A stretch of 64,000 nt of DNA from Paenibacillus sp. FSL H8-0332 (lineage in GTDB: Bacteria > Bacillota > Bacilli > Paenibacillales > Paenibacillaceae), in contig NZ_CP150145.1 of NCBI RefSeq assembly GCF_037963835.1, forward strand, positions 3,038,001-3,102,000, written 5' to 3'. The position numbers and the translations under genes were made by a program. Of this stretch, positions 4,651 through 17,092 are shown piece by piece; position 1 is the first letter of the stretch, and the number at the start of each line of letters is the position of its first letter. The notes beneath the pieces were generated by a model that had not been told where the DNA came from, did not search any database, and saw nothing but the letters and a program-made list of their open reading frames with translations.

Positions 4651-4700
4651 AACCTCTCCTTGGTAAAATGGGCAACCATTTTGCCAAGGAGAGGTTTATT
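4651..4700 (+). terminator. intrinsic terminator after the LmrB-like gene
   Basis: A stem of about 20 bp with arms AACCTCTCCTTGGTAAAATG and its near-perfect complement ending at 4696, a short GCAA-type loop, then TTTATTTGTGTTT on the + strand. Confidence 0.8.
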
Positions 4701-4814
4701 TGTGTTTGCTAATGTATGAAGGCGGATGTGAGGGGGATGGACTTCGTTTGGTTAATACTGTATATTGAGCATAGATTAACGATGTATAGGCGAAACAAAC
4801 AGGAGGGAATGCCG

Positions 4815-5147
4815 ATGAAGGTCAGCAAAGAAATGCTGAAGGGGAGCACAGGGACGATGATCCTTACTCTGCTGCTGGACAGGCCGCTGTATGGGTACGA
4901 GCTGATTAAGGAGCTGGAGCAGCGCTCGCAGGGAGTTTTTGCCCTGAAGGAGGGTACGCTCTACCCGATTCTACATGCGATGGAGAGTGAACGCTGGGTG
5001 GAAGCGTATTGGATGGAGGTAGACGGACGCAGACGCAAGTATTACCGGCTACTGGATGAGGGCAAGCACAAGCTTAAGGAGAAGAAGGCGGAGTGGGCGC
5101 TGTTCAAGGGCGCCATGGATACCGTTCTGGGGGAGGGCAGCGGCTGA
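4815..5147 (+). CDS. PadR family transcriptional regulator
   Basis: A 110-residue winged-helix repressor. The PadR core is clear: MLKGSTGTMILTLLLDRPLYGYELIKEL, then LKEGTLYPILHAMESE (recognition helix) and a basic wing with GRRRKYYRL. It is of the short class without a long C-terminal dimerisation helix. AGGAGGG at 4801-4807 sets the ATG at 4815 instead of the upstream ATG at 4716. Its stop codon overlaps the start of the SEDS-like gene by one base, so the two are translationally coupled. This PadR plus membrane-protein layout is common for envelope-stress or autoregulated operons. Confidence 0.9.
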   Translation: MKVSKEMLKGSTGTMILTLLLDRPLYGYELIKELEQRSQGVFALKEGTLYPILHAMESERWVEAYWMEVDGRRRKYYRLLDEGKHKLKEKKAEWALFKGAMDTVLGEGSG

Positions 5148-6481
5148 TGGAGCAGAGTAAGAAGGATCTGGAGCATTACCTGGATACAGTATGCGCCGAG
5201 GTCAGGGCGAAAGGGATGCACAATGAAATCCGGGACGAGCTCAGCGGGCATTATGCAGACCTGGTGGCAGAGCGGATGCAGCTTGGTAATTCCGAAGAAG
5301 AAGCCCAGGAGTACGCTATCGCGCAAATGGGCGACCCGCAGGCCGTAGGCAGAGAGCTGCACCAGATCCATAAACCACGCATTCCTTGGGGGCTGCTGGC
5401 CGGTGTAATATTGTTGTCAGCGGTAAGTCTGCTGGGGATGGCAGCTGTGGAAGCGGGGTTTGGGGATTATTACAAATTTCCTGATGCCCTTATGCTGCGC
5501 CAATCTGTGTATATCGTTCTTGGGATCGCGGTCATGACCATCATGTATTTCATCAATTTCAAGCACGTGCTGAGAGCTTCGGGATTTATTTATTGCGCAG
5601 CATTCATGGCGATTCTCTTCAGCATATTGGTAGGTCTTCAGGTGACTAATGGCGTTAGGCGTTATGTGGGCATCCTGGGACTCTTCTTCGATGTGATCGG
5701 ATACAGTCCTTATGTGTTTGTGGTTGCCCTGGCAGGAATATGGAACAGACAAGGCTTCATGAAATCATGGAGCGGACGAACAAGAGAATTGGCGGAATTA
5801 TCGTTATTGCTGCTGCCGGCCGTGATTTATGCGGTTATCCCCGCTGTTCCTGAACTGATTCTATATCTGGCCGTATCCCTGACGCTCTATATCTGGATGA
5901 CACGCCGCTGGATTAGAGGTGCGGTAATTGCTGTAACATGTCTAACCGGCGGGGCAATCTATGTGTGGAACCAACTGCAACTGCGGGAACGAATCATGGC
6001 GGCAATTCAAGCGGATCATAGGGATACGGGCGCAGGCTACTTGAATAGTGTAATTCACAACACGCTAACCTCCGCAGGCTGGAGAGGACAGGGAATGGGT
6101 TATAGAGGAGCGGAAGAACGCTTGTTGTTTCCTTATACGGACCTTTTTCCTGTGTACCTGATCCAATGCTTCGGCTGGGCCGGAGGCCTGCTGCTGCTTG
6201 CGCTGACTTGCTGGTTTGTACTCAAAATGGTCTCCTACGCCCGCGCGGTAAGCGATACCTATGGGCGGATGCTGATCCTTGCGTTGACGCTGATGCTATC
6301 GATCCGCTTGTTGTATGGCTTGTCTATACTCAGCGGCAGAATGCCGCTTACATCCATACCGTTTCCCTTCCTAAGCTACGGGCAGCATGTCCTGATTGAA
6401 TTCGCCGCTGTCGGATTGCTAATGGGGATCTACCGGCGCAAAGATATGCTCCCGGCGGGGCAAGCTCCATCTTCACTATAG
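5147..6481 (+). CDS. SEDS (FtsW/RodA/SpoVE) family protein with N-terminal permease-prefix domain
   Basis: A 444-residue membrane protein. Residues 1-75 form a soluble helical domain of the kind found before permeases in PadR operons (DUF1700-like: DLEHYLDTVCAEV, then EEEAQEYAIAQMGDP). The rest has about ten helices and SEDS landmarks: GAGYLNSVIHNTLTSAGWRG, the outer loop PYTDLFPVYL with Asp332 where RodA has its catalytic Asp, and the last-helix motif SIPFPFLSYG. SEDS proteins polymerise glycan strands from lipid II with a class B PBP. Here the EE pair normally after TDFIF is replaced (LIQCFGWAGG), so it is a divergent member and its activity is uncertain. The ATG at 5147 overlaps the PadR stop. 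Confidence 0.8.
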   Translation: MEQSKKDLEHYLDTVCAEVRAKGMHNEIRDELSGHYADLVAERMQLGNSEEEAQEYAIAQMGDPQAVGRELHQIHKPRIPWGLLAGVILLSAVSLLGMAAVEAGFGDYYKFPDALMLRQSVYIVLGIAVMTIMYFINFKHVLRASGFIYCAAFMAILFSILVGLQVTNGVRRYVGILGLFFDVIGYSPYVFVVALAGIWNRQGFMKSWSGRTRELAELSLLLLPAVIYAVIPAVPELILYLAVSLTLYIWMTRRWIRGAVIAVTCLTGGAIYVWNQLQLRERIMAAIQADHRDTGAGYLNSVIHNTLTSAGWRGQGMGYRGAEERLLFPYTDLFPVYLIQCFGWAGGLLLLALTCWFVLKMVSYARAVSDTYGRMLILALTLMLSIRLLYGLSILSGRMPLTSIPFPFLSYGQHVLIEFAAVGLLMGIYRRKDMLPAGQAPSSL

Positions 6482-6550: not shown

Positions 6551-7318
6551 GTGAACAAGCTGCGATATACAGGCACAAGACTCGGATTACTGTTAGGTGC
6601 AATGATTGTAAGCGGGGCTGCACTTCTGGGCGTAATGACAACGGCTGCAGCGGCACCCGTGACTGCTGAGACATCGTTTACACCAAGTACAGTTGTGAAG
6701 AAAAACAGTCTCCCCGGCGGGTTTGTCTATCTGGATGAGGTTATTCCCACGGCGCAATATGAGATCCGTTATTATAGTGAGAATAATTTTACCGGCACCA
6801 GGGTGGACGGGTATAAGGCACCGCTGGCAATCTTCTCGCGGACTGCCGCCGCTGCGCTGAAGAAGGTCAGTGAAGACCTGGAACAGAAGGGCTATATCCT
6901 GAGAATCTATGACGCTTACCGTCCGCAGCAAGCCGTCAACCACTTTGTGCGCTGGTCGCAGGATGCAGCCGATCTGAAGATGAAGCCACAGTATTATCCG
7001 AAGCTGGACAAGCGCAATCTGTTCAAGCTGGGCTTCATCGCCAAGAAATCCGGGCATTCCCGGGGCAGCACGATCGACCTGACCCTGGCTCAGAAGAGCA
7101 CAGGCAAGCTGGTGGATATGGGCAGTCCTTATGATTTTTTTGGTGAAATCTCTTACTATAATACGACGCTCATCAGCAGCACCCAGCATGCTAACCGCAA
7201 AATTCTGAAGGATGCGATGACGAAGCATGGCTTCAAGCCGTACGCTAAGGAATGGTGGCATTTCACACTGATTAAGGAGCCTTACCCGAAGCAATATTTC
7301 AACTTCAAAGTGGAGTAG
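6551..7318 (+). CDS. secreted D-Ala-D-Ala dipeptidase (VanX/DdpX, peptidase M15D)
   Basis: A zinc dipeptidase acting outside the membrane on D-Ala-D-Ala or related dipeptides. A signal peptide (basic start, hydrophobic core about 11-33, cleavage after the Ala run) is followed by the M15D domain. Zinc ligands and catalytic Glu are visible: His169 and Asp176 in SGHSRGSTID, Glu234 and His237 in KEWWHF, with the same spacing as in VanX (H116, D123, E181, H184). IYDAYRPQQA matches the conserved Arg region. The exported form suggests a role in wall turnover or D-Ala recovery, not vancomycin resistance, and no vanHA genes are present. The GTG start follows GGTGAGG. Confidence 0.88.
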   Translation: MNKLRYTGTRLGLLLGAMIVSGAALLGVMTTAAAAPVTAETSFTPSTVVKKNSLPGGFVYLDEVIPTAQYEIRYYSENNFTGTRVDGYKAPLAIFSRTAAAALKKVSEDLEQKGYILRIYDAYRPQQAVNHFVRWSQDAADLKMKPQYYPKLDKRNLFKLGFIAKKSGHSRGSTIDLTLAQKSTGKLVDMGSPYDFFGEISYYNTTLISSTQHANRKILKDAMTKHGFKPYAKEWWHFTLIKEPYPKQYFNFKVE

Positions 7319-15426: not shown

Positions 15427-16266
15427 ATGACAGAGAGACGTATGATTGGACCCACCAAATTTGAAGAGTACTCGGAGAAATACAAGGAATTTCTGTTAAT
15501 GACCCGCCGTGACGGAATCCTTGAAGTGCGTCTTCACACGGGCGGAGGATCGTACACGCACAATTGGGAAGCTCATACCGCCTGGTCTCATGCCTGGTCA
15601 GATATTGGCCGTGACCCTGAGAACGAAGTCATGATTATTACGGGAACCGGGGATAAATGGTTGATTGGCGACCCTGAGGTCTGGAATACGAAATTCATGG
15701 ACTGGCCGAAGCAAAAGAAGCTCGAACAGTATCATGAATCGCTGAGACTGCTTGAGAATCTGATCTTCTGCATTGACATCCCGACAATCGGGGCAGTCAA
15801 CGGCCCGGGAACGCACTGTGAACTCGCAACGCTCTGCGATATTACCATTTGTACGGAAGACGCGGACTTTTTCGATCCGCATTATCTGGGAGGCACGCCT
15901 CCAGGAGATGGAATGCTGCTCACACTGCAGAGCATGATCGGTTTCAAAAAAGCAGCCTACTACGCATACACCGGCAAGAATATCAACGGTCAGACCGCGT
16001 TAGATCTGGGTATCGTCAGTGAAGTGCTGCCCCGTGAGCAGCTTCTTCCACGCGCTTGGGAGCTCGCGGAGATGATCATGCAGGTACCGCGTTCAACGAG
16101 ACATCTGTCTCACTCCATTATCTCCCGGCCATGGAAGCAGGCTCTGGTCGCTGATCAGGGATTCCAGCTTGCCCACCAGATGTACGACATGGCCATTGAT
16201 GAAGAAGGAGCGCTGGAGCGGCTGAAGAAAATGCAGGGACGCCTGATGGGCAACGATGTTCAATAG
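15427..16266 (+). CDS. crotonase family, 6-oxocamphor hydrolase-like (copy 1)
   Basis: A 279-residue crotonase-fold protein. Beyond the general enoyl-CoA hydratase pattern (VMIITGTGDKW, IGAVNGPGTHCELATLCD) it matches 6-oxocamphor hydrolase of Rhodococcus at its catalytic sites: His130 (for H122), His152 (for H145) and Asp161 in PPGDG (for D154), with the same 9-residue gap between the last two. That enzyme splits a C-C bond in cyclic beta-diketones without CoA. A retro-Claisen hydrolase is therefore a better guess than a CoA hydratase. Comparison is from memory. AGGAGG precedes the ATG by seven bases. The next gene is a close paralogue. Confidence 0.75.
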   Translation: MTERRMIGPTKFEEYSEKYKEFLLMTRRDGILEVRLHTGGGSYTHNWEAHTAWSHAWSDIGRDPENEVMIITGTGDKWLIGDPEVWNTKFMDWPKQKKLEQYHESLRLLENLIFCIDIPTIGAVNGPGTHCELATLCDITICTEDADFFDPHYLGGTPPGDGMLLTLQSMIGFKKAAYYAYTGKNINGQTALDLGIVSEVLPREQLLPRAWELAEMIMQVPRSTRHLSHSIISRPWKQALVADQGFQLAHQMYDMAIDEEGALERLKKMQGRLMGNDVQ

Positions 16267-17092
16267 AAAGATGACGGGACCTACTCGGCTCGAAGAATAC
16301 TCGGAGAAGTACAAGGACTTATTCCTCATGACCCGCCGCGGCGGCATCCTCGAAGTGCGTATGCACACTGACGGGGGACCTTTACAATTCGACTGGCCGG
16401 TCCAAGCCGCTTATGGTCACGTATGGTCAGATATTGGCCGTGATCCTGAGAATGAGGTCATGATTCTTACAGGGACAGAAGAGTTATGGCAGACCGGCAA
16501 TCCTGAAGTCTGGAATACGAAATTCATGGATTGGCCGAACCGCCGGAAGCTGGAAATGTACCATGAATCACTTAGAATGATTGAAAATATGGTTCAGTGC
16601 ATCGACATCCCCACGATTGGGGCGGTTAATGGCACTGGCGCACACTGGCAGCTGGGAACGCTTTGTGATATTACGATCTGTGCGGAAGACACGGCGTTCT
16701 TCGATGCCCATTATCTGGGCGGTGTTCCGCCTGGAGACGGAATCGTCCTGGCACTTCAAAGGATACTGGGAACCAAGAAAGCGGCATACTATGCATACAC
16801 GGGCTTGAACATTAATGCTCAAGAGGCATTAGATCTCGGTCTGGTCAGTGAGGTGCTGCCTCGTGAACAGCTTCTTCCACGGGCATGGGAGCTGGCAGAG
16901 CTGATCATGCAGGCACCCCGCTCAACAAGACATCTTACGCATTCGATTGTGTCGCACCCGTGGAAACAAGCTTTTGCAGAGAATCAAGGTCTTCAGCTTA
17001 CCCACCAATTGGTTGACATGGCTATTGATGAAGAAGGGATTCATGAGCGGCTGATGAAGTTTAAGGAACGTTTTCAGAGGAATGACAACTGA
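16256..17092 (+). CDS. crotonase family, 6-oxocamphor hydrolase-like (copy 2)
   Basis: A 278-residue paralogue of the preceding protein, colinear over its whole length and sharing blocks such as TRLEEYSEKYK, PEVWNTKFMDWP and EVLPREQLLPRAWELAE. His130, His152 and Asp161 are all kept at the same numbers. The start at 16256 overlaps the previous stop by 11 bases and reproduces the N-terminus of copy 1, so translation is coupled. Retention of the catalytic set in both copies argues for two working subunits or two related substrates instead of a decaying duplicate. Confidence 0.75.
   Translation: MFNRKMTGPTRLEEYSEKYKDLFLMTRRGGILEVRMHTDGGPLQFDWPVQAAYGHVWSDIGRDPENEVMILTGTEELWQTGNPEVWNTKFMDWPNRRKLEMYHESLRMIENMVQCIDIPTIGAVNGTGAHWQLGTLCDITICAEDTAFFDAHYLGGVPPGDGIVLALQRILGTKKAAYYAYTGLNINAQEALDLGLVSEVLPREQLLPRAWELAELIMQAPRSTRHLTHSIVSHPWKQAFAENQGLQLTHQLVDMAIDEEGIHERLMKFKERFQRNDN

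Follow-up and report, generated by a model that had tools for sequence, protein, structure and literature searches.

We identified a padR gene that overlaps the gene of a divergent SEDS-fold membrane protein with an N-terminal soluble prefix, both on the forward strand of the window (the whole 64,000-nucleotide stretch of Paenibacillus sp. FSL H8-0332 DNA that was analysed). By a modest balance of the evidence, the two genes probably form an envelope-stress module of the PadR-HAAS type that regulates itself, with a repurposed SEDS domain as its membrane part, which is probably not a processive peptidoglycan polymerase.

Organization of the padR-SEDS locus

The padR gene (4815-5147) encodes a 110-aa PadR-like winged-helix repressor (PF03551, 85 bits), which matches solved PadR structures at an E-value of 4e-21. 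As the sequence-only reading had it, the overlap with the following gene (5147-6481), which encodes the 444-aa prefix-SEDS protein, amounts to one base: the padR stop codon TGA occupies 5145-5147 and the ATG start codon of the SEDS gene begins at 5147. A strong intrinsic terminator with a 20-bp stem, a 4-nt loop and a T-rich tail (4652-4695, forward strand) sets the upstream MFS gene apart from the padR operon. Between this terminator and padR, also on the forward strand, lie a possible sigma-70-like promoter (TGGACT-17-TATATT, 4738-4766), with 9 of 12 consensus matches in a region where promoter-like sites occur at chance level, and the predicted PadR operator GAGCATAGATTAACGATGTATAG that it abuts (4767-4789, 25 bits).

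Downstream, 69 nt 3' of the SEDS gene and on the same strand, begins a gene for a VanX-like peptidase of the D-Ala-D-Ala dipeptidase family M15 (6551-7318; PF01427, 152 bits), which has a signal-peptide-like N-terminus and scores 224 bits against NF033115, under the cut-off of 320. The search for terminators returned none between the two genes, and the VanX-like gene is possibly the third gene of the operon, in which case it would be co-transcribed with the SEDS gene; otherwise its position would reflect conserved gene order. A VanX-like gene lies 3' of the SEDS gene, directly or after one gene of unknown family, in about 26 members, which belong to one Paenibacillus subclade only. Loci with such a downstream gene include L038, L039 and L041, and several relatives encode a protein of ~300 aa with no Pfam or NCBIfam match between the SEDS and VanX-like genes. 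No class B PBP gene was seen beside the operon among the ORFs at the locus. Elsewhere in the window (15427-17092), a pair of neighbouring enoyl-CoA hydratase-like genes that resemble each other lies next to an M20-peptidase-like gene and a serine-dehydratase-like gene, all annotated by eye from the translations only.

A divergent SEDS protein with a HAAS-like prefix

The membrane domain of the 444-aa protein (residues 108-431; 5468-6439, forward strand) was assigned to the FtsW/RodA/SpoVE family by PF01098 (74.4 bits, cut-off 26.4; E = 1e-20). Both SEDS landmarks picked out by the sequence-only reading, PYTDLFPVYL and IPFPFLSYG, are present. The Asp in PYTDLF is residue 332 (codon at 6140-6142) and is by alignment the equivalent of the RodA catalytic Asp (E. 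coli Asp262), a correspondence suspected beforehand and found by phmmer, which placed the PYTD motif on the catalytic-Asp loops (HTDF) of E. coli MrdB and Thermus RodA. The EE pair, correctly reported as absent, is replaced by Q340/C341 and is present in all 25 canonical SEDS proteins compared. All equivalog models scored under their cut-offs (TIGR02210, 88.7 against 336.7 bits; TIGR02614, 72.1 against 337.5 bits; TIGR02615, 59.3 against 448.8 bits), and the four other SEDS genes of the same 7.54-Mb, single-contig genome reach 255-399 bits, compared with 72 for the prefix-SEDS gene. Two adjoining SEDS paralogues (L003, L004) were located in this genome at G000:C1:6599633-6602138; one of them has Glu in place of the catalytic Asp (YSESIF), yet its QPAExxK motif and EE pair are intact. 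The closest named relative of the window protein, in a contig search with the single protein that gave two loci, is a Paenibacillus silagei protein with 68% identity. A chance match to the SEDS family is excluded because of the E-values and of 141 relatives of like layout. The possibility of a pseudogene was dropped, the ORF being intact in the window and in relatives. An AlphaFold2 model of the full-length protein, made with a 3-row alignment, was poor in the membrane part (pLDDT 49).

The N-terminal soluble helical prefix (permease prefix 1/HAAS-like; residues 21-72; 5207-5362, forward strand) matched NF038403 with 41.4 bits against a cut-off of 30, which bears out its proposed similarity to the soluble prefixes of permeases. 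Residues 1-81 were modelled by AlphaFold2 as entirely helical (pLDDT 84), and the prefix contains a GxP motif, G62-D-P64. A Foldseek search of solved structures with the prefix model returned no significant match. The Pfam HAAS model PF22564 scored 16.2 bits on the window protein, below its cut-off of 27, and reached E<=0.01 in 4 of 18 family members. Two further prefix/HAAS proteins are encoded in the same genome, each following an overlapping padR gene. From the NCBIfam model, the GxP motif, the weak Pfam HAAS matches, the PadR partner and published precedent, we infer that the prefix is of the HAAS type.

Distribution, phylogeny and linkage to padR

The genus, the class and the phylum were searched with a profile made from 18 members, and prefix-SEDS were split from ordinary SEDS proteins. 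From the fetched loci, 141 distinct prefix-SEDS proteins of Bacilli and Clostridia were gathered; these sequences are phylogenetically non-independent, and prefix-less relatives may be missing from the set because the collecting profile contains the prefix. When 100 genomes from the genus were searched, more than half had strong prefix-bearing matches; across the class and the phylum a minority of genomes did, and the unit is therefore accessory and patchy in its distribution. Several prefix-SEDS genes are interrupted by stop codons or shortened (L046, L085 and others), which points to repeated loss of the unit. In trees of the membrane domain only, computed with limited rooting and a limited canonical sample, the prefix-SEDS proteins formed one clade apart from 24 canonical SEDS proteins (FastTree, 131 versus 24 sequences, SH support 0.997; IQ-TREE, 45 versus 24 sequences, ultrafast bootstrap 100); a clade of prefix-bearing SEDS proteins had been put forward as a possibility beforehand.

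A padR gene is located directly upstream of 133 of the 141 prefix-SEDS genes, usually with an overlap of 1-28 nt, and of none of the 25 canonical SEDS genes. The eight prefix-SEDS genes without padR comprise four second copies in tandem pairs, two genes at contig ends and two broken genes. The sequence-only reading had assumed that a ligand-type repressor does not normally control SEDS genes; the prefix-SEDS genes show this to be wrong, and the arrangement was published in 2019 and 2024. Tandem duplicates of prefix-SEDS genes behind a single padR were observed in some Paenibacillus (L050, 5854-8790; L088; L090; L091), the second copies having no padR of their own. An ECF sigma gene precedes padR in 14 of 118 loci, and the PadR proteins of these loci are nearly all of a divergent, LstR-like type. 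In LstR-type PadR proteins next to an ECF sigma factor (L201:3570-4001, L057:5588-5989), the N-terminal extension FSFSEERKNAVKETI presumably resembles the N-termini of ECF anti-sigma factors, so that these proteins may bind both DNA and the sigma factor.

Predicted operator and regulon

Of 107 homologous padR genes with distinct upstream regions, 105 are preceded by a site that scores above the 99th percentile of shuffles, with a motif refined on the same sequences on which it was scored. The operator is 23 bp long and has the family consensus ATACATAGATTTACGATGTATAG. Raw 8-mer counts show the motif independently, with ATACATAG occurring in 55 of the 107 regions. The 7.5-Mb genome contains one zero-mismatch core site, which is situated before the window padR, and its sole one-mismatch core site falls inside an mnmG-like coding region. 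With one core site in the genome, the predicted regulon is the padR-SEDS operon alone, and such a single-operon regulon would agree with the RNA-seq data for LstR in Listeria (PMC6624303). The SEDS protein would then also be an effector, or part of the output, and not a pure sensor. None of the sigma-type operons scanned contained the motif.

Residue losses and putative function

Residue numbering and mutant data follow RodA (PMC10449877). Nearly all prefix-SEDS proteins have other residues in place of Gln111, Glu114, Lys117 and Asp159, which in RodA sit within or between the cavities (PMC10449877); the window protein has D182, G185, P188 and A233. At the positions of the TM4 motif QPSExxK (Gln111, Glu114, Lys117), the tips of the prefix-SEDS tree have Q in 0 of 124 and K/R in 1 of 131, versus Q in 25 and K in 24 of 25 canonical SEDS proteins, and the EE pair is gone across the clade. 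The Arg210 equivalent (Arg282 in the window protein) is kept in 122 of 141 members and the Ser344 equivalent (Ser410) in 113; the Trp102 position is mostly aromatic (Tyr173 in the window protein), and at the Arg48 position 85 members have Arg or Lys. As the catalytic residue, 107 members have Asp and 18 have Glu; the other 16 have a different residue there. Non-acidic residues at position 332 (N, A, G, H, T, V or Q) are found in 16 of 131 tree tips, corresponding to ~10 changes by parsimony, and padR is retained beside nearly all of these genes. A loss of the lipid II cavity in the clade, which the sequence-only reading had named as refuting its proposal, was thus found in part: a portion of the residue cluster in or between the cavities has disappeared, and Arg282, Ser410 and mostly Asp/Glu332 have stayed.

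These residues bear on the alternative that the unit supplies an inducible backup glycosyltransferase, with PadR sensing a wall-active compound and releasing a divergent SEDS polymerase when FtsW/RodA are inhibited, or an enzyme that uses another Und-PP donor or modified lipid II. Such a backup role was put forward for Lmo0421 of Listeria by Hauf et al. (PMC6624303). The presence of Asp332 and Arg282 in the window protein, an acidic residue at 332 in 125 of 141 members, mostly Arg/Lys at 282, and Ser410 in 113 would leave room for catalysis, more so in members that keep Asp332, the window protein included. The losses in TM4/5 are not proof of inactivity, because E. coli RodA E114A and K117N retain most of their activity in vitro, while the SpoVE counterparts fail in vivo (PMC10449877). 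Against a backup enzyme stand the near-universal loss of the TM4/5 cluster, the repeated loss of the acidic residue at 332 with padR still in place, and the finding that overproduced Lmo0421 substituted for neither FtsW nor RodA and left susceptibility to wall antibiotics unaltered (PMC6624303); we regard this alternative as unlikely. Where the sequence-only reading had offered an inducible polymerase or a repurposed SEDS protein, the TM4/5 losses, the lax Asp position and the non-replacement by Lmo0421 favour the repurposed protein, and the polymerase half of the proposal comes out weaker.

The prefix holds most of the positions that rank highest in conservation: every sequence scored has H35 and G62, and G68, E31, A53, A57 and G47 are nearly invariant, whereas Asp332 ranks only 61st. 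A PadR-switched, non-catalytic resistance protein, with a SEDS domain that would bind lipid II/Und-PP, shield it, or modulate house-keeping SEDS-bPBP complexes, would have the prefix only as a scaffold for assembly or close to the membrane. The relaxed Asp332, the patchy accessory distribution and the precedent of BC4206-BC4207 and enterocin AS-48 in Bacillus cereus (PMC2774856) are consistent with this explanation, which however leaves unexplained both the top conservation of the prefix and its sharing only with other PadR partners in the genome, and we hold it to be distinctly improbable. Chance neighbourhood of an ordinary divergent SEDS paralogue and an unrelated padR has next to no probability left and was ruled out by the 133/141 padR linkage, spread over Bacilli and Clostridia and mostly with overlapping genes, together with an operator common to 105/107 padR upstream regions.

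In the favoured PadR-HAAS module, PadR would bind the predicted operator at 4767-4789 and repress the operon, and the cytoplasmic prefix of the second gene's product would, as a HAAS-type module, contact PadR. The SEDS domain, which keeps the Arg for binding the Und-PP phosphate (Arg282) and, here, the catalytic Asp, and lacks the canonical RodA TM4/TM5 cluster, would probably bind lipid II, Und-PP or an envelope-active compound. Its bound state would be relayed through the prefix to PadR, and derepression of the operon would yield more SEDS protein and perhaps more of a secreted VanX-like peptidase. A more specific version, which we put forward tentatively and hold to be possible though rather doubtful, is that this SEDS clade turned into a receptor for lipid II/Und-PP occupancy, in which the old polymerase cavity would signal through the prefix to PadR as an alternative to a two-component system. 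If the SEDS fold indeed signals and does not polymerise, it would act as a built-in sensor for the lipid II cycle, at which many antibiotics are aimed, and the detection of wall-active natural products by Bacilli and Clostridia could be explained in this way. Even for a mere backup enzyme, the conserved operator and the clade make the inducer and the function testable.

Comparison with known systems

The window protein shares with RodA/FtsW/SpoVE (PF01098, CAZy GT119) the fold, as judged by sequence, and the equivalents of the catalytic Asp, Arg210 and Ser344. It differs in the missing equivalents of Gln111, Glu114, Lys117, Asp159 and the EE pair, in its prefix and in its PadR partner. BC4206-BC4207 of Bacillus cereus likewise consists of a PadR gene followed by a membrane-protein gene; it is strongly induced by the membrane-active enterocin AS-48, and the PadR-controlled membrane protein confers resistance to this peptide (PMC2774856). 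BC4207, however, was dropped as a homologue because its description gives it 4 transmembrane segments; it has not been reported to be a SEDS protein, and the comparison is one of a system that works alike only.

The HAAS-PadR dyad was named by Ravi et al. (2024), who proposed such dyads as an alternative to two-component systems and found FtsW/RodA/SpoVE among the fused membrane parts (PMC11237479). The window pair resembles the HAAS-PadR-like wHTH dyad in its helical GxP prefix N-terminal to a multi-TM domain and in its standalone PadR, and an FtsW/RodA fusion (CAC98500.1) is already in their list. It differs in that the window prefix scores under the Pfam HAAS cut-off and in that no PspC or Toastrack domain was seen nearby.

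In L. monocytogenes, the PadR protein LstR represses lmo0423-lstR-lmo0421 ~145-fold and mainly affects its own operon in RNA-seq (Hauf et al. 2019, PMC6624303). We located this sigC operon on a record labelled as a plasmid (locus L201); NZ_LR134402.1, the 569-kb 'plasmid 5' of L. monocytogenes NCTC7974, has genes known from the chromosome (sigC operon, pgdA), to which it probably belongs as a fragment. As in the window, padR overlaps a prefix-SEDS gene, and the repressor is mainly autoregulatory, as predicted for the window PadR. Lmo0421 has the prefix (NF038403, 38.5 bits), falls inside the prefix-SEDS clade and lacks QPSExxK, and its identity to the window protein is 28%, with 98% of the query aligned. 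The Listeria operon differs in its upstream ECF sigma gene sigC, where the window has an MFS gene and a terminator and no sigma gene. LstR is a longer PadR (NF006931), to which model the shorter window PadR reaches 56 of 112 bits; the Listeria operon yielded no copy of the window operator, and of the two loci it is the window's that has a VanX-like gene downstream. The pairing of padR with a prefix-SEDS gene is thus already known in kind (PMC6624303, PMC11237479). New are the set of 141 members, their clade, the counts of PadR linkage, the 23-bp operator with its uniqueness in the genome, and the residue losses.
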